A stretch of 64,000 nt of DNA from the NCBI RefSeq assembly GCF_000723205.1, contig NZ_HG315671.1, positions 570,851 through 634,850 on the forward strand. Direction: 5' to 3'. Shown here in pieces: positions 20,773 through 46,383 of this stretch. Numbering within the stretch: the first letter of the stretch is position 1; each line of letters begins with the position of its first letter. Both the position numbers and the translations under genes were made by a program. Under the pieces are notes generated by a model. The model ran no database searches. It was not told the DNA's origin and was given only the letters and a program-made list of their open reading frames with translations. Source of the DNA: Formosa agariphila KMM 3901 (GTDB lineage: Bacteria > Bacteroidota > Bacteroidia > Flavobacteriales > Flavobacteriaceae).

Positions 20773-22128
20773 ATGTCAAACGACATTAAGATTACAAAAG
20801 GTCTAGACATTAAGCTTAAAGGAGAGGCCGAAAAAGCCTTAGAAAGTGCTGTAATAAGCAATTCTTATACCTTAAGACCTGAAGACTTCCATGGAGTTAT
20901 TCCAAAATTAGTTGCTAGAGTTGGGGATAAAGTAAAAGCGGGTGGCCCTGTTTTTTACGATAAATCTAATGAAACTATTCAGTTTGTTTCACCTGTTTCG
21001 GGAGAGATTGTTGACATTTTACGTGGTGAAAAACGTAAAATATTAGCGATTAAAATCCAAGCAGATAAAGAACAAGTTTACCAGGAAAACGAAAAAATCA
21101 ACCTAAATTCTGCAACTGCTGAAGATTTAAGTACTTACTTACAATCTACAGGGTGTTGGACGTTTATAAAACAACGCCCATACGACATAATTGCAAACCC
21201 AACGAAACAGCCTAAAGCTATTTTTATTTCGGGTTACGATAGTGCACCGTTAGCAGCAGATTTAGACTTTGTTTTACAAGGTAAAGAAGCTGAATTACAA
21301 GCTGCAGTTACTGCTTTAGGGAAATTAACTTCAGGACAAGTACATGTGTCGGTTAAAAATGGATCAAATTCATCATTAGCAGGTTTATCTGGAGTTTCTC
21401 TTCATAAATTATCTGGTCCACATCCAATAGGAAATGTAGGAACTCAGATTAATAAAATTGACCCAGTAAATAAAGGCGAAGTAGTTTGGACAATTAATCC
21501 ACAAGATCTTGTTATTATTGGAGAGTTATTACTTACAGGTAAGTTTAATGCAGAGCGTATTGTTGCTTTAGTGGGGTCTTCGGTAAAAAAACCAAGATAT
21601 TTTAAAACTAAAATTGCAAGCGAAATTTCTACTATTGTTTATTCTAACGGAATAGATCAAAACGGAAATAATCGTATTATTTCAGGTAATGTATTATCAG
21701 GAAAACAAGTAAAACCAGATGGAAATTTAGGTTATTATAGTAATATGATTTCTGTAATTCCAGAAGGAGACGATTACGAGTTTTTTGGATGGAACAAACC
21801 GGTGTTTAACAAAGTATCTACATCGAGAGCGATGACATTTTCTTGGTTAAGCCCAAATAAAAAATTCGATTTAAATACAAATACAAACGGAGAACATCGT
21901 GCTTTTGTATTAACAGGTAATTACGAAAAGGTATTTCCTTTAGATATTTTTCCTTTGCAAATACTTAAATCTTGTATGTATACAGATTTAGATGAAATGG
22001 AAGCACTTGGTATGTACGAAGTTGCTCCTGAAGATTTTGCGTTAACAGAATTCGTTTGTGTATCTAAACAACCACATCAAGACATTATTAGAAAAGGTTT
22101 AGATGTAATGATTAAAGAAATAGGGTAA
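20773..22128 (+). CDS. nqrA: Na+-translocating NADH:quinone reductase subunit A
   Basis: NqrA is the peripheral cytoplasmic subunit of NQR, the respiratory complex that oxidises NADH, reduces quinone and pumps Na+. The 451 residues begin with KITKGLDIKLKGEAE, typical of the family, and continue with GVIPKLVARVGDKVKAG (biotinyl-like fold) and PVSGEIVDILRGEKRKI. SGPHPIGNVGTQI near 213 is a family motif. It is first in nqrABCDEF, with nqrB starting 2 bases after its stop codon. Confidence 0.97.
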   Translation: MSNDIKITKGLDIKLKGEAEKALESAVISNSYTLRPEDFHGVIPKLVARVGDKVKAGGPVFYDKSNETIQFVSPVSGEIVDILRGEKRKILAIKIQADKEQVYQENEKINLNSATAEDLSTYLQSTGCWTFIKQRPYDIIANPTKQPKAIFISGYDSAPLAADLDFVLQGKEAELQAAVTALGKLTSGQVHVSVKNGSNSSLAGLSGVSLHKLSGPHPIGNVGTQINKIDPVNKGEVVWTINPQDLVIIGELLLTGKFNAERIVALVGSSVKKPRYFKTKIASEISTIVYSNGIDQNGNNRIISGNVLSGKQVKPDGNLGYYSNMISVIPEGDDYEFFGWNKPVFNKVSTSRAMTFSWLSPNKKFDLNTNTNGEHRAFVLTGNYEKVFPLDIFPLQILKSCMYTDLDEMEALGMYEVAPEDFALTEFVCVSKQPHQDIIRKGLDVMIKEIG

Positions 22129-22130
22129 TC

Positions 22131-23330
22131 ATGAGTTTAAAAAGTAATTTACATAATTTAAAAGAGAAGTATAAAGGTACCAAGATGGCACCGGCGTTTA
22201 ATGCTTTGCATACGTTTTTATACTTGCCAAATGAGACGACCCATAATGGTACTCATATTAAAGCAGCCGACGATTTAAAGCGTACTATGAACACGGTTAT
22301 TATGGCTATGGTGCCATGTTTAATCTTTGGTATGTTTAACGCTGGTTATCAGCATTTCTTAGCTTCGGGCGCTCCTGTAGAGTTTTTATCTTGGGATGCA
22401 TTCTACATTGGTTTAATTAAAATTTTACCATTAATCGTGGTGTCTTACGGAGTTGGTTTAGGTATAGAATTTATTTTCGCTACCATCAATAATCACGAAG
22501 TAGAAGAAGGGTATCTAGTTACAGGTATGTTAGTGCCTTTAATTGTGCCAATAGATATTCCATTATGGATGTTAGCTGTAGCAGTAGTCTTTGGAGTTGT
22601 TATAGGTAAAGAAGTCTTTGGAGGAACAGGAATGAATATTCTTAATCCTGCATTAACTATACGTGCATTTTTATTCTTCGCATATCCTACTTGGATGTCT
22701 GGAGATAAAGTATGGGTTCACGGTGCTGTAGAACGTACAAATGAAATTGCTGCTGGTGCAAATGTCGATGCCATTTCTGGAGAGACTATTCTAGGTAGCT
22801 TAGCTCAAGGCCATGAAATACATCATTCTATTGCAGATATGTTTTTCGGATTTATTCCGGGTTCAGTAGGAGAAACATCAACATTCTTAATCCTTTTAGG
22901 AGGATTGTTCTTAATCTTTACAAAGATTGGAAGCTGGAGAATTATGTTATCTGCTGTAATAGGAGCACTAGTTATGGGGTTAATTTTTAATGGTGTTGTA
23001 TCATCAGGATGGATTACAGAAACTAGTAAGTTTTATACATTAATGAGTACAGAATTCTGGCATCACTTAATTATTGGTGGATTTGCTTTTGGAGTTGTTT
23101 TTATGGCAACAGATCCGGTAACAGCATCTCAGACTAATAAAGGAAAATGGATTTACGGGTTCTTAATCGGGTTCTTATCAATTATGATTAGAGTCTTTAA
23201 CCCTGCATATCCAGAAGGTGTAATGCTTGCAATCTTATTAATGAATGTATTTGCTCCAACTATCGATCACTATATCATTCAAGGGAATGTAAAGAAAAGA
23301 ATGAAACGTTTAAAAGTAAAAACGGCTTAA
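22131..23330 (+). CDS. nqrB: Na+-translocating NADH:quinone reductase subunit B
   Basis: NqrB is a membrane subunit that carries one covalent FMN, has a quinone site and forms part of the Na+ path. The 399 residues hold about ten membrane segments; GGTGMNILNPALTIRAF (164-180) and FMATDPVTASQTNKGKWIYG (near 326) are family signatures. The FMN attachment site is normally DxxSGAT; here residues 213-219 read DAISGET, so Thr219 is kept but the preceding alanine is glutamate. NqrC also departs from the motif. The gene is tightly packed between nqrA and nqrC. Confidence 0.97.
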   Translation: MSLKSNLHNLKEKYKGTKMAPAFNALHTFLYLPNETTHNGTHIKAADDLKRTMNTVIMAMVPCLIFGMFNAGYQHFLASGAPVEFLSWDAFYIGLIKILPLIVVSYGVGLGIEFIFATINNHEVEEGYLVTGMLVPLIVPIDIPLWMLAVAVVFGVVIGKEVFGGTGMNILNPALTIRAFLFFAYPTWMSGDKVWVHGAVERTNEIAAGANVDAISGETILGSLAQGHEIHHSIADMFFGFIPGSVGETSTFLILLGGLFLIFTKIGSWRIMLSAVIGALVMGLIFNGVVSSGWITETSKFYTLMSTEFWHHLIIGGFAFGVVFMATDPVTASQTNKGKWIYGFLIGFLSIMIRVFNPAYPEGVMLAILLMNVFAPTIDHYIIQGNVKKRMKRLKVKTA

Positions 23331-23332
23331 CA

Positions 23333-24085
23333 ATGGAAAATAGAACAGATAAAAATTCATATACTATAATATTTGCTATAGTAATGGTTTTTGTAGTAGG
23401 TGCTTTATTAGCCTTTACGGCTTCATCATTAAAGCCAAGAATTACTGAAAATCAGCGTATCGAAAAGCAGCAAAATATTTTGTATGCTATGGGTGTAAAT
23501 GATAATACAGAAGGAAGTGCAGTTTTTGTTTCTACAACAGATGCTCCAGACTTATTTGAAAAATACATCACAAAACAAATTGTTATTCAAGGCGGACAAA
23601 CTTTAGAAGATTCTGAAGCCTATTTAATGGATATTAAAAAGGAAAAAGCAGCGTCTAAAGGCGATGCTTCTCAAAGACGTTTACCTTTATTTATTGGAGA
23701 AAAAGATGGTGAAACATTTTATGTGATTCCAATTTATGGTAAAGGGTTATGGGATGCCATTTGGGGATACGTATCAGTAGATAAAGATATGGTTGTTCAA
23801 GGTGCTTATTTTGATCATAAAGGGGAAACTCCTGGTTTAGGTGCTAACATTAAAGAGCGTTTCTTTATGGACGACTTTATAGGAGAGCATTTATTAGATG
23901 ATGCTGGTAACTTTAAAGGTATTACAGTCTCTAAAAGTAACGCAGATCCAAAAAACGAAGATAAAACAGATAATGAGGTTGATGCCATTGCAGGTGCTAC
24001 TATTACAGGTGATGGTGTTACTGCAATGATTAAAAGTGATTTAAAACTTTACAAGCCTTATTTCGATAACTTAAAAAATAATTAA
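23333..24085 (+). CDS. nqrC: Na+-translocating NADH:quinone reductase subunit C
   Basis: NqrC carries the second covalent FMN, on the outer face of the membrane. The 250 residues have one N-terminal membrane segment (about 10-32) followed by an FMN-binding domain. GKGLWDAIWGYVSVD (137-150) and KGETPGLGANI (163-173) are family motifs. The flavinylation motif is AGAT at 220-223, preceded by DAI: the usual serine or threonine is alanine, while the acceptor Thr223 is present. It follows nqrB by 2 bases and precedes nqrD by 3. Confidence 0.97.
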   Translation: MENRTDKNSYTIIFAIVMVFVVGALLAFTASSLKPRITENQRIEKQQNILYAMGVNDNTEGSAVFVSTTDAPDLFEKYITKQIVIQGGQTLEDSEAYLMDIKKEKAASKGDASQRRLPLFIGEKDGETFYVIPIYGKGLWDAIWGYVSVDKDMVVQGAYFDHKGETPGLGANIKERFFMDDFIGEHLLDDAGNFKGITVSKSNADPKNEDKTDNEVDAIAGATITGDGVTAMIKSDLKLYKPYFDNLKNN

Positions 24086-24088
24086 TTT

Positions 24089-24736
24089 ATGGCACTTTTA
24101 TCAAAAAAAGACACAAAATTAATCACCGATCCGTTAGCGGATAATAACCCAATTACTATTCAGGTATTAGGGATATGTTCTGCATTAGCAATTACAGCGC
24201 AATTAAAAGCGTCTATTGTAATGGCTGTATCGGTAATGGCAGTGCTAGGAATAGGGAACGTTGTTATTTCTTTAATGAGAAATATAATTCCTTCTAAAAT
24301 TAGAATTATTGTGCAGTTAGTAGTTGTAGCTGCTTTAGTAATTATAGTAGATCAAGTATTAAAAGCCTTCTCTTACGAGTTAAGTAAAACACTTTCTGTA
24401 TTCGTAGGTTTAATTATTACCAACTGTATTATTATGGGACGTTTTGAAGCTTTCGCTTTAGCTAACGGACCTTGGAGATCGTTCTTAGATGGTATTGGTA
24501 ATGCTGCTGGATATGGTTTAATTCTTATTATTGTTGGATTCTTTAGAGAATTATTAGGTTCTGGTACGTTATTAGGATTTAAAGTTTTAGGAGATCCAAT
24601 CGAAAAGACTGGATTATATGCTATAGGATACGAAAACAACGGATTTATGTTGTTATCGCCAATGGCCTTAATTGTTGTTGGAATTATCATATGGGTACAA
24701 CGTAGTAGAAATAAAGCATTAGTAGAAGATCATTAA
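24089..24736 (+). CDS. nqrD: Na+-translocating NADH:quinone reductase subunit D
   Basis: NqrD is a six-helix membrane subunit; with NqrE it holds an iron centre between the two subunits, each giving two cysteines. Here these are Cys30 (VLGICSALAIT) and Cys113 (IITNCIIMGRFEAFA). The 215 residues end in a basic tail (WVQRSRNKALVEDH). The gene sits in the nqr operon 3 bases after nqrC; a 40-base gap separates it from nqrE. Confidence 0.97.
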   Translation: MALLSKKDTKLITDPLADNNPITIQVLGICSALAITAQLKASIVMAVSVMAVLGIGNVVISLMRNIIPSKIRIIVQLVVVAALVIIVDQVLKAFSYELSKTLSVFVGLIITNCIIMGRFEAFALANGPWRSFLDGIGNAAGYGLILIIVGFFRELLGSGTLLGFKVLGDPIEKTGLYAIGYENNGFMLLSPMALIVVGIIIWVQRSRNKALVEDH

Positions 24737-24776
24737 TCAGTATTGGGTTTTTACTTAACTGAAATCTTATAAGAAT

Positions 24777-25493
24777 ATGGAACATATAGAATTATTTTTC
24801 AAATCAATATTTATAGATAACATGGTATTTGCAACATTCTTAGGAATGTGTTCTTACTTGGCTGTATCTAAAAAAGTAAGTACAGCTGTAGGTTTAGGTG
24901 CCGCGGTTATATTTGTACTTGCTATTACTGTACCTTTAAACTGGTTATTAGATCAGTATATTCTTCAGCCTGGAGCCTTAAAATGGTTAGGTGCAGAATA
25001 TGCAGATTACGATTTAAGTTTCTTATCGTTTATTTTATTCATTGCTACCATTGCAACAATGGTTCAATTAGTAGAAATAATAGTAGAGAAGTTTTCACCA
25101 TCATTATATAACTCTTTAGGTATTTTCTTACCACTTATCGCAGTAAACTGTGCTATATTAGGAGGTTCTTTATTTATGCAATCTCGTGAAATTCCTACTT
25201 TAGGATTAGCAACAACTTATGGTGTAGGTTCAGGAATTGGATGGTTTTTAGCGATTTTAGCTATTGCAGCTATTCGTGAAAAAATTAGATATTCTAATGT
25301 ACCACCTGCATTAAGAGGATTAGGAATTACGTTTATTATTACAGGTTTAATGGCTATCGGATTTATGAGTTTTGGTGGTATGTTAACTGGTGGTGATGAA
25401 GAAGGAGCTAAAGAAGAGCAAACCGTAAAAGTTGAAACTCCTGAAGCAGACAACGTAAAAGAGTTAGCCAATAATACAAAAGAAATCAACTAA
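24777..25493 (+). CDS. nqrE: Na+-translocating NADH:quinone reductase subunit E
   Basis: NqrE is the antisymmetric partner of NqrD and gives the other two iron-ligand cysteines, here Cys25 ([10 protein letters not shown]) and Cys125 (AVNCAILGG). The 238 residues are about 40 longer than the roughly 198-residue Vibrio protein. Part of the excess is a C-terminal tail from about residue 205 rich in Glu, Lys and Thr ([12 protein letters not shown] onward) that cannot be membrane-embedded. The tail's role is unknown. Confidence 0.96.
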
Positions 25494-25499
25494 GAGATT

Positions 25500-26816
25500 A
25501 TGACGATTTTAGCAGCAAGTACAACAGGAACAATAATTGCAACGGTAGTAGCTTTTTTAATTATTACTTTAGTTTTAGTAAGTTTATTATTGTTCGTGAA
25601 ACAAAAATTATCGCCATCTGGTCCAGTAAAGATCAAAATTAATGGTGAACGTGAAATAGAAGTAGGATCTGGAGGTAGTTTATTATCTACGTTAGGTGCT
25701 CAAAAAATATTCTTACCATCGGCTTGTGGTGGCGGAGGAACTTGTATTCAATGTGAGTGTCACGTGCTTTCTGGTGGAGGTGAAGCTTTACCTACAGAAA
25801 CACCTCACTTTACAAGAAAAGAACTTGCACATGGTGCTCGTTTATCTTGTCAAGTTAAAGTGAAACAAGACATGGAAATTACAATTCCTGAAGAAGTTTT
25901 CGGAATTAAAAAATGGGAAGCAACTGTAGTGTCTAACTATAACGTTGCCACATTTATTAAAGAATTTGTAGTTGAAATTCCAGAGGATATGGATTACAAA
26001 GCTGGAGGATATATTCAAATTGAAATTCCTGAGTGCGAAATTAAATATTCAGATATGGATATTTCTGCTCACCCTCAAGATCACCCAGGTGAGCCAGATA
26101 AGTTCGAGGCAGATTGGGATAAGTTTGGTTTAAGACCTTTGGTTATGAAAAACACCGAACTTGTAGAAAGAGCTTACTCTATGGCTTCTTATCCTGCAGA
26201 AGGACGTAAAATTATGCTTAACGTGCGTGTAGCAACACCACCTTTCGACCGTGCTAAAAATGGTTGGATGGATGTTAATCCAGGTGTAGCATCTTCTTAT
26301 ATTTTCAATCAGAAAATAGGAGATAAAGTAACAATATCTGGACCTTACGGTGAATTCTTTATCAACGAATCTGAAGCAGAAATGCTATACGTAGGTGGAG
26401 GAGCAGGTATGGCACCAATGCGTTCTCATATTTATCACTTATTCAGAACTTTAAAAACAGGAAGAAAAGTAACATATTGGTACGGTGGACGTTCTAAAGC
26501 AGAATTATTCTACATCCATTACTTTAGAGCCTTAGAACAAGATTTCCCGAACTTCAAGTTCTTTATCGCTTTATCTGATCCTACAGAGGCTGATAACTGG
26601 AAAGTGAAATCAGATATCGATGATCCAAACGGAGATGGATTTACTGGATTTATTCACCAAGTGGTAATTGATCAGTATTTATCTAAACATGAAGCTCCAG
26701 AAGACTTAGAATTATATTTCTGTGGTCCTCCATTAATGAACAAAGCCGTTCAGAAAATGGGTGAAGATTTTGGTCTTGATGACGAGAATATTAGATTTGA
26801 TGACTTTGGAGGTTAA
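25500..26816 (+). CDS. nqrF: Na+-translocating NADH:quinone reductase subunit F
   Basis: NqrF is the NADH-oxidising entry subunit. It has one N-terminal membrane helix (about 10-33) and a 2Fe-2S ferredoxin domain with Cys76, Cys82, Cys85 and Cys117, the same spacing as in Vibrio. A ferredoxin-reductase module follows, with RAYSMASYP binding FAD and [14 protein letters not shown] binding NADH; it ends IRFDDFGG. The 438 residues are normal length but for a short insertion around [22 protein letters not shown]-like sequence (residues about 182-205). It ends the operon at a strong GAAA-loop terminator. Confidence 0.97.
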
Positions 26817-30219: not shown

Positions 30220-31203
30220 ATGAAACAATTGCCCCTTTATATCCTACTTATTTTATTTTTAACATCATGTCATCAGACTAAAGAGCACGTTAGAGTCTCC
30301 GGAGCTGTATTTGGTACTTCTTATTCTGTTCAATATTTCTCTAAGGAAAATATTAACTATAAAGCACAATTTGATAGTTTGTTTAATGTGCTTAATCAAT
30401 CTATGTCAACTTATATAGAAGATTCTGATATTTCAAAATTGAATAGAAATGAGCTGACATTTATAGATGATCATTTTGCCTATGTTTTTGATGCCTCAAA
30501 AGAGATTTATAAGGAAACAGATGGCGCTTTCGACCCTACTATTGGTGTTTTAGTTAACGCATGGAACTTTGGTCCAGCAAAAGAAATTATTGGTTTAGAT
30601 AGCCTTAAAATAGATAGTTTATTACTTAGTGTTGGTTTAGATAAAGTACATAGAAAACATCACGACATTATAAAAGATAATCCTAATACTTTTATAGATT
30701 TTAATGCCATTGCAAAAGGGTATTGTGTAGATGTTATTGGACGTTTTTTAGAATCTAAAAATATTTCAAATTACCTAGTAGAAATTGGTGGTGAAATTCG
30801 TGCAGTTGGGATGAATATGGAAAAAAATAGTCCATGGAAAGTTGGCGTAGAAATGCCTCATTTTGATGGTACACAATCTTTATTAAAAGCGATTGAATTA
30901 AAAGGTCAATCTATGGCCACTTCTGGAACGTATAGAAAATTTAAAGTGGATAACGAAGGCAACAAATATTCTCATATTATTGATGCGCACACGGGGTTTC
31001 CAAGTAAAACAAATTTGTTGAGTATTTCTGTTATTGCAAGTAACTGTATGACTGCAGATGCATACGCCACAGCTTTTAAAACTATGGGCATAGAACATGT
31101 AAAATCTTTTTTATCTACACATCCAGAGTTAAGTGTGTTTCTTATTTTTGAAAACGACAAACAGGAATTAGAAACTTTAGCGTTAAACGGATTTCCTGAA
31201 TAA
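30220..31203 (+). CDS. apbE: FAD:protein FMN transferase
   Basis: ApbE attaches FMN through a phosphoester bond to a threonine in proteins such as NqrB and NqrC, using FAD as donor, outside the cytoplasm. Residues 1-17 form a lipoprotein signal (LILFLTSC, Cys17). Family motifs include VFGTSYSVQYFS near 29, STYIEDSDISKLNR near 65, FDPTIGVLVNAWNFGP near 107, DFNAIAKGYCVDVIG near 166, and ATSGTYRKF near 232. IIDAHTG and MTADAYATAFKTMG near 280 hold Mg2+ ligands. It begins directly after the 125-residue gene and ends 1 base before the convergent DUF423 gene. Its presence fits the nearby nqr operon. Confidence 0.95.
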   Translation: MKQLPLYILLILFLTSCHQTKEHVRVSGAVFGTSYSVQYFSKENINYKAQFDSLFNVLNQSMSTYIEDSDISKLNRNELTFIDDHFAYVFDASKEIYKETDGAFDPTIGVLVNAWNFGPAKEIIGLDSLKIDSLLLSVGLDKVHRKHHDIIKDNPNTFIDFNAIAKGYCVDVIGRFLESKNISNYLVEIGGEIRAVGMNMEKNSPWKVGVEMPHFDGTQSLLKAIELKGQSMATSGTYRKFKVDNEGNKYSHIIDAHTGFPSKTNLLSISVIASNCMTADAYATAFKTMGIEHVKSFLSTHPELSVFLIFENDKQELETLALNGFPE

Positions 31204-44361: not shown

Positions 44362-44910
44362 TTATTCATTTTGAATAATTTCGGCAAGTAGTTTTTTAGC
44401 ACGGAGTAATTTTACTTTTACGTTATTGATAGGTTCGCTAAGTTCTACAGAAATTTCTTTATAAGTTAACTCCTGAAAATAACGAAGATTAATCACTACT
44501 TGATAATGAGGCTTTAATCGTTTTATGTCTCTTAGAAGTTTAGCTAAATTTTGATCGGTAATAATTTTGTCTTCAGCAGAAGGCGATTCATCTAAAACTT
44601 GATTTATAGCGTATTCATCTTCTTTAGAAATTTGTCTAGAAATCGAACTTTTTTCCTTCCGAAGTAAATCAATATGAATATTTTTAGAAATTGTAATTAA
44701 CCATGTTTTAAAAACATAATCGTCGTTGTAAGTCTCAATTTTATCAAAAGCTTTAGAAAATGTTTGTATGGTAATATCTTCTGCATCATTCTCGTTTCCG
44801 ATACGTTTTAGCTGAAATCCATAAACGTCTTCCCAATAGGTGTGAAGGAGATAGTTAAACGCTTTTTGATCGTTTTGTTTCGCTCTTTTTATGGCGTGTT
44901 CTATTTCCAA
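44362..44910 (-). CDS. ECF-type RNA polymerase sigma factor
   Basis: The 182 residues show region 2 (FNYLLHTYWEDVYGFQLKRIGNENDAEDITIQTF, about 18-51, of which DAEDITIQTF is the core-binding part) and region 4 (LKPHYQVVINLRYFQELTYKEI, about 132-153) with a helix-turn-helix. The predicted start is TTG, lying inside the last codons of the upstream glycosyltransferase gene, with a 10-base overlap. No anti-sigma gene is next to it, unlike the second sigma factor at 47197. It may work with a distant regulator or respond through its translational coupling to the glycosyltransferase. Target promoters unknown. Confidence 0.9.
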   Translation of the reverse strand: MEIEHAIKRAKQNDQKAFNYLLHTYWEDVYGFQLKRIGNENDAEDITIQTFSKAFDKIETYNDDYVFKTWLITISKNIHIDLLRKEKSSISRQISKEDEYAINQVLDESPSAEDKIITDQNLAKLLRDIKRLKPHYQVVINLRYFQELTYKEISVELSEPINNVKVKLLRAKKLLAEIIQNE

Positions 44911-46013
44911 GTTTGGGGTTTTGATATCTTATTTGATATAAATATAGCCAATTGTGTTAGAATAACGAAAATTTCTAAAAAAGGGATTATAAACACTAAA
45001 TCAGATTCATTTAGCTTTTTTGCACTTTTACCCATTACAATCCATTGTATTAAAATACGTAAAGTAAATAAGCCAATAACAATTTCCCATCTAAATAAAA
45101 GCGACAATAAAACGATTCCTAATATCCAAAATAGAATTTGAGAAACATAAAAGAGACCTAATAAAAATTTGTGACTCTTTTTATAGTAAGACACGGTAGA
45201 AACATGTCTTCGTTTTTGTTTAACCCAAGCTCCAAATGTTTTTTTAGGAACAGATTCTGTAAAACTTTCAGGAGAAATACTTAATGCCGTGTTTTTACTG
45301 CTCGCCATCTGGTTTACAAATAAATCGTCGTCTCCAGATCGCACATTCATATGATTTATAAACCCGTTTGCTTCAAAAAACAAAGTTTTGGTATAAGCTA
45401 AATTACGACCAACACCCATGTAAGGTAAACCTAATTTAGCATAAGAAAAGTATTGAGAAGCTGTTAAAACCGTTTCAAAACGGATTAACATGTTTAAAAA
45501 TGAATTTTTAATTTTAGCATATCCACCGTAACCTAAAACTATAGATTTTTCATGGTTGAAATGTGCTGCTATTTCAGAAATCCAAGTGGTAGAAGTTGGC
45601 CTGCAATCTGCATCTGTAAATACTAGGTGATTGTGTTTAGCAGCTTTAATTCCTAGAGTTAAGGCGTATTTTTTATTGGCCCAAAAGGCTTCTGTGTTTT
45701 TTACATCAACAATTCTAATGTTGTTATATTGCTCCGAAAAATGTTCGAAAACACTTAAGGTTTCATCGTGAGATGCATCGTTTATTAAAACGACTTCAAA
45801 ATTTGGGTAGTCTTGATTTAAAACAGAAGGTAAGAATTGTTTTAAATTCTCTTCTTCATTTTTAGCACAGACAATAATAGATACAGGAATTTCTGTTTTT
45901 TGAGGTTGAGTTGGTTTTAAAAACGCGAATGTTCTAAGAAAAACTAAATAATAAAATAACTGAATAAAGACAATTGCTACAAAGCTGTAGAATAGAATGT
46001 CGAGTGCAACCAT
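44901..46013 (-). CDS. Membrane glycosyltransferase, family 2
   Basis: The 370 residues begin with a membrane helix (about 5-28). A GT-A domain follows, with SIIVCAKNEEENL (about 44-56), VVLINDASHDET (about 74-85), the DxD motif FTDADCRP (near 135), GDDDLFVNQ (near 227) and KQKRRHVSTV (near 265, the usual QxxRW position). Two or three membrane helices near the end (about 280-365) suggest processive transfer or transfer to a membrane carrier. It lies between the four-cysteine membrane protein and the sigma factor and is probably co-transcribed with them. The sugar and acceptor are unknown. Confidence 0.88.
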   Translation of the reverse strand: MVALDILFYSFVAIVFIQLFYYLVFLRTFAFLKPTQPQKTEIPVSIIVCAKNEEENLKQFLPSVLNQDYPNFEVVLINDASHDETLSVFEHFSEQYNNIRIVDVKNTEAFWANKKYALTLGIKAAKHNHLVFTDADCRPTSTTWISEIAAHFNHEKSIVLGYGGYAKIKNSFLNMLIRFETVLTASQYFSYAKLGLPYMGVGRNLAYTKTLFFEANGFINHMNVRSGDDDLFVNQMASSKNTALSISPESFTESVPKKTFGAWVKQKRRHVSTVSYYKKSHKFLLGLFYVSQILFWILGIVLLSLLFRWEIVIGLFTLRILIQWIVMGKSAKKLNESDLVFIIPFLEIFVILTQLAIFISNKISKPQTWK

Positions 46014-46021
46014 GTAACGGA

Positions 46022-46225
46022 TTAAGAGTGTTGTGGTTCGCTACAATCTTTATACTGGTCTGGAGTTTTACCACAAAACCCACAAGATTCTCCCGATTCG
46101 TTTAACATAGGATTTTGGCTCGCACACGTACCAGCAAATTTACCATCTTTTTTTGCCCAAATTTTTATTGCAATTCCTGCAACTCCTAATCCTAGTAAAA
46201 CTAATGTTATAAGTAGTAATTTCAT
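46022..46225 (-). CDS. Small four-cysteine membrane protein, NqrM-like architecture
   Basis: The 67 residues consist of one N-terminal membrane helix (about 3-23), then a short basic stretch and a tail with exactly four cysteines: Cys34 in FAGTCASQNP, Cys48 and Cys51 in SCGFCGK, and Cys61 in YKDCSE. This is the layout of NqrM (DUF539), a small membrane protein needed to mature Na+-NQR, which has an N-terminal helix, a GSCGG-like cysteine near residue 33 and further cysteines. I judge it a candidate NqrM on architecture alone; sequence identity outside the cysteines is low. It stands about 19 kb from nqr, with its own promoter, 8 bases upstream of the glycosyltransferase. Confidence 0.7.
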   Translation of the reverse strand: MKLLLITLVLLGLGVAGIAIKIWAKKDGKFAGTCASQNPMLNESGESCGFCGKTPDQYKDCSEPQHS

Positions 46226-46324: not shown

Positions 46325-46360
46325 AAAAATAAGCCTCACTTTTAATTAAAAGCGAGGCTT
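46325..46360 (-). terminator. Terminator of the sigma/anti-sigma pair
   Basis: AAGCCTC and GAGGCTT arms, extended inward past one mismatch by CTTTT/AAAAG, form a long stem (46331-46360). The A-rich plus-strand left flank becomes a U tract for minus-strand transcripts. It lies 24 bases after the anti-sigma stop codon. Confidence 0.8.
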
Positions 46361-46383
46361 ATTTTATGTGTGTTATATCGTGT

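Follow-up and report, generated by a model that had tools for sequence, protein, structure and literature searches.

A cysteine-rich membrane protein gene outside the nqr operon

The window, by which we mean the whole stretch of 64,000 nucleotides from Formosa agariphila KMM 3901 analysed here, carries nqrABCDEF at 20773-26816 and an apbE-like gene. A gene for a 67-residue protein, hereafter called type A, lies 19 kb from nqrF and hence outside the nqr operon.

20773-22128, plus strand: nqrA (ORF; TIGR01936, 471 bits at contig 1:591635-592969)
22131-24085, plus strand: nqrB and nqrC (from ORF order)
24089-24736, plus strand: nqrD, with two cysteines only, 30 and 113
24777-25493, plus strand: nqrE, with two cysteines only, 25 and 125
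25500-26816, plus strand: nqrF (TIGR01941, 558 bits)
30220-31203, plus strand: apbE-like gene for a flavin transferase, so named from sequence resemblance
44362-44910, minus strand: sigma-factor-like gene, third gene of the probable transcript (ORF position)
44901-46013, minus strand: glycosyltransferase gene, directly downstream of type A, likely co-transcribed
46022-46225, minus strand: type A gene; NqrM-like protein of 67 residues with an N-terminal membrane helix, then KKDGKFAGTC(34)...C(48)xxC(51)G...C(61)
46145-46222, minus strand: part coding for the predicted membrane helix, residues 2-27 (AlphaFold2)
46326-46365, minus strand: terminator-like hairpin closing the upstream anti-sigma-like gene (18-pair stem, T-rich tail)

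NqrD and NqrE have exactly two cysteines each, as an intramembrane [2Fe-2S] centre needs, and we take these four residues to be the ligands of the iron centre. The sequence-only reading of this DNA was correct in that the genome has NQR and no NqrM beside it. Nor did the PF04400 (DUF539) profile find a canonical NqrM elsewhere in the genome: its best match, at contig 1:1331505, scores 11.5 bits against a cut-off of 22 and is noise.

The product of the minus-strand ORF 46022-46225 is:

MKLLLITLVLLGLGVAGIAIKIWAKKDGKFAGTCASQNPMLNESGESCGFCGKTPDQYKDCSEPQHS

The plus strand of the same interval is interrupted by stops. The open reading frame noticed earlier is real, with 67 residues and cysteines at 34, 48, 51 and 61, the coding strand being the minus one. 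A search of the genome-contig collection returned 449 relatives, the best 80 of which are full length, 76-96% identical and alike in cysteine spacing in all 80 cases; because of these relatives we regard the gene as conserved and rule out a chance ORF. No match was found in plasmids by tblastn with the protein. Two type A copies occur in some genomes: L042 and L061 (Bizionia echini), G253 and G275.

AlphaFold2 predicts one helix at residues 2-27 (pLDDT about 85 over residues 1-20), in agreement with the single N-terminal membrane helix read from the letters. The tail is modelled with low confidence (pLDDT 45-53), too weak for a fold search.

The type A gene probably starts its transcript, because the terminator-like hairpin ends the upstream gene. 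Its stop codon lies 8 bp from the ATG of the glycosyltransferase gene, an arrangement retained in most close relatives. The glycosyltransferase is on the type A strand in all 70 loci with this neighbour, usually at a gap of 4-13 bp; so is the sigma-factor-like gene in 79 of the 79 loci where it was found. The short gap and the common strand bear out the glycosyltransferase/sigma transcript proposed earlier.

Co-occurrence with NQR, and a second protein

A type A profile and the nqrA profile TIGR01936 were compared over 148 genomes drawn across Bacteroidota. nqrA exceeds its cut-off in 33 genomes; clear type A matches occur in 26, all of them among the 33. The remaining seven belong to one family, f14, and carry near nqr a different protein, type B, which brings the NQR genomes with type A or type B to 33/33 in this sample. 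Neither protein has a convincing match in any of the 115 nqrA-negative genomes. We attributed to chance the type A match in G004 (E 0.0098; 33 residues in a 420-residue frame with a stop) and the type B matches of G115, G016 and G047 (E 0.005-0.008); the candidate in G047 (L153) resembles a FeoB-associated-type peptide. Several genomes below the nqrA cut-off have weak nqrA matches only, probably to an RnfC homologue. They lack both proteins, and RNF therefore does not explain the pattern.

Type B was first seen after nqrA-F and apbE in L138 and L139, as a small membrane protein with an SGCCGGGxC tail. A profile of these two sequences finds exactly the seven f14 NQR genomes (E 6e-12 to 2e-42), other matches being at chance level. 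The gene is near nqr in all seven, directly after apbE in most:

L138, 3649-3861, minus strand: type B
L139, 4534-4740, minus strand: type B
L171, 8184-8393, plus strand: type B
L172, L173, L174 and L175: type B

For the two type B proteins tested, no Pfam or NCBIfam model exceeds its cut-off. Both type A and type B have one helix and a cysteine-rich tail and are restricted to NQR genomes, but the SGCCGGGxC tail is unlike that of type A, whose place type B takes in f14.

Within the genus of G021, type A is found in 11 of 121 genomes and nqrA in exactly the same 11 (hypergeometric 8e-16, a value that overstates independence since the sampled genomes are related); nqrA of G360, in this genus, is split over two contigs. 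In a family-level set of 199 genomes, type A is present in 195 and nqrA in 196. Type A is missing from three genomes that do have nqr, whose completeness is 66-89%; G310 lacks nqrA and has nqrF. The one near-complete genome out of step is G280 (99% complete; type A at L165:9382-9585), without nqrA, nqrF or NuoD; it may reflect a missing contig or be a real exception. Wide presence in genomes without NQR, which the sequence-only reading had held would count against it, is the opposite of what was seen (0/115 in the phylum, an 11/11 match in the genus). Its expectation that the family is tied to nqr genomes stands as to restriction to NQR, G280 excepted, but not for the f14 clade, which has type B instead.

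Relation to canonical NqrM

Type A has no match over cut-off among Pfam and NCBIfam models. The direct DUF539/NqrM profile search proposed at the outset left the 67-residue protein unmatched: PF04400 finds neither it nor five other type A proteins, and all 148 Bacteroidota genomes stay below its cut-off. On proteobacterial control NqrM it scores 84 and 30 bits. Among the type A and type B proteins, matches to Zn_ribbon_IFT122 and FixS fell below cut-off and were rejected. Because PF04400 does not recognise type A, we do not class it as a member of that family; the missing match is nevertheless outweighed by profile-profile comparison and by the position of the gene in relatives.

The canonical set comprised nine proteobacterial NqrM from plasmid-collection records, most annotated nqrM; two that were tested match PF04400. 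These annotated records were located with an approximate query sequence, and all comparisons used the retrieved sequences. hhalign aligns type A with this set at 95.3% probability over 34 columns. The score of 45.1 is reached by none of 100 shuffles (maximum 26.4), in which membrane columns and tail columns were permuted separately. The alignment covers mainly the helix and the GTC, tail similarity being weak, and pairs GTC34 of type A, with its invariant cysteine, with GSC33 of NqrM. Cys33 of Vibrio harveyi NqrM, in the G-S-C motif directly after the helix, is reportedly essential. Type B reaches 92% profile probability against canonical NqrM and 66% against type A, the latter not clear of the shuffle control. 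When an HMM of the nine NqrM was run over the 10,115 ORFs of all loci, type A and type B held 15 of the top 16 ranks, at modest E-values (2e-4 for type B; the best-placed type A reaches 4e-3).

Like NqrM, type A is small, with an N-terminal helix followed by positive residues and then G-S/T-C; it has four cysteines, kept in 80/80 close relatives at a non-canonical spacing; it is restricted to NQR genomes, again except G280, and in relatives follows nqrA-F-apbE. Unlike NqrM, it lies below profile detection, is detached from nqr in Flavobacteriaceae, and has CASQNP where NqrM has CGGL. Of the NqrM layout claimed from the sequence, the single N-terminal helix and the number of cysteines hold, but the spacing C34-x13-C-x2-C-x9-C is unlike the gammaproteobacterial C-x11-C-x1-C-x3-C (L121). 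Alphaproteobacterial NqrM (L124: C33-x11-C-x2-C-x15-C) is nearer to type A, both having CxxC. The L124 protein, the one alphaproteobacterial case tested, matches only positions 1-28 of the 43 of PF04400, and the Pfam model is therefore biased to the gammaproteobacterial tail. A CxxC with a distant fourth cysteine recurs in L126 and other Rhodobacterales. The FeoB-associated cysteine-rich membrane protein (PF12669) is likewise small, with one helix and a cysteine-rich tail; it gave sub-threshold matches only, and tracks FeoB, not NQR.

Could type A be an NQR-specific accessory protein without homology to NqrM, a small additional subunit or a protein acting at some other step, such as subunit assembly or quinone-site protection, resembling NqrM through shared helix composition only? 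The weak tail similarity and the silence of Pfam would fit, as would the very different tails of type A and type B and their comparison within reach of the control. We nonetheless hold this improbable, given that the hhalign score is well beyond anything reached when helix and tail columns are shuffled separately, that the canonical HMM puts type A and type B at the top of all ORFs, and that type A and canonical NqrM are over cut-off together in none of the 148 genomes.

Gene position in relatives

In Vibrio, nqr is known to be followed by apbE and then nqrM (PMC6209661, PMC12174285). In relatives this place, behind apbE where the nqr operon ends, is taken by type A; in this genome it is not. 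In L130, nqrA-B-C-D-E-F are followed on their strand first by a gene whose position marks it as a probable apbE and then by type A, which begins 24 bp past the preceding stop. In L131-L136 and L162-L164, type A stands at the operon end, convergent with the adjoining apbE. Type A and nqrA are less than 100 kb apart in 14 of 23 genomes where a single large contig holds the two (about 5% would be expected for each genome; these genomes were hand-picked and are related, and the 14 are not independent events). This suggests descent from a linked state: in Flavobacteriaceae, type A has left the nqr operon, often still lying within 100 kb of it.

Five of the 11 type A genomes in the genus of G021 have the gene within about 8 kb of nqrA. 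NuoD is present in the four of these five that were tested (G342, G344, G356 and G373) and in the NQR-less members tested; it is absent from the tested members whose type A is unlinked. Complex-I-only members have neither type A nor nqr. In the four genomes this suggests lateral gain of a joined nqr-apbE-type A on top of complex I.

That type A serves general membrane Fe-S or metal assembly, or the glycosyltransferase/sigma operon, its co-occurrence with NQR reflecting shared ancestry, is the least credible reading despite the strongly conserved neighbourhood in Flavobacteriaceae: other families and part of the G021 genus have type A beside nqr-apbE without those neighbours, its presence follows nqr exactly in that genus, and genomes with only low-scoring nqrA matches (probably an RnfC homologue) lack it.

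A proposed role in NQR assembly

NQR co-occurrence, gene position in relatives and profile comparison together support the original suggestion of a distant, diverged NqrM. Type A is very probably a form that NqrM has taken in Bacteroidota: diverged, altered in its cysteine layout and, here, detached from nqr. It is probably a new variant working like NqrM, a remote homologue rather than a PF04400 member.

NqrM is apparently needed for insertion of the intramembrane [2Fe-2S] centre (reviewed in PMC12174285), and PMC6209661 cites a prediction that it supplies NqrD and NqrE with iron. By analogy, type A would be anchored in the inner membrane by its single N-terminal helix, with the cysteine-rich tail predicted on the cytoplasmic side by the positive-inside rule, because a lysine-rich stretch follows the helix. 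GTC34 at the membrane surface, together with C48xxC51G...C61, may bind iron or a nascent Fe-S unit; type A would then pass iron to the four NqrD/NqrE cysteines holding the intramembrane centre and be needed for NQR assembly.

A further idea is more doubtful, if less remote than the alternatives above: Bacteroidota might insert the iron with two or more proteins that exclude one another and differ chemically, type A having a CxxCG knuckle and type B having SGCCGGGxC. One or more of these would have arisen independently, and the route to the NqrD/NqrE iron centre might differ between clades. Type A and type B would also serve as natural variants with which to study the path of iron into a membrane-buried centre.

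The origin of NQR has been proposed to lie in the Chlorobi/Bacteroidetes group (PMC4014512), and it is in this proposed home phylum that the profile recognising NqrM stays below cut-off in all 148 genomes sampled. A literature search, to which subscription journals were mostly closed, found no description of NqrM in Bacteroidota. Naming the Bacteroidota forms could make such NQRs producible in heterologous hosts, and hundreds of unannotated or unnamed small genes could then receive a name.

A CBS-domain-like gene also recurs beside nqr, apbE or nqrM in Bacteroidota, and is possibly a further NQR-associated protein:

L162, 8828-9262, minus strand: CBS-domain-like gene
L163, 8395-8976, minus strand: CBS-domain-like gene
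L174, 4714-5193, minus strand: CBS-domain-like gene

Annotated CBS-domain genes likewise lie near nqrM in Rhodobacterales plasmids (L123, L126 and L128).
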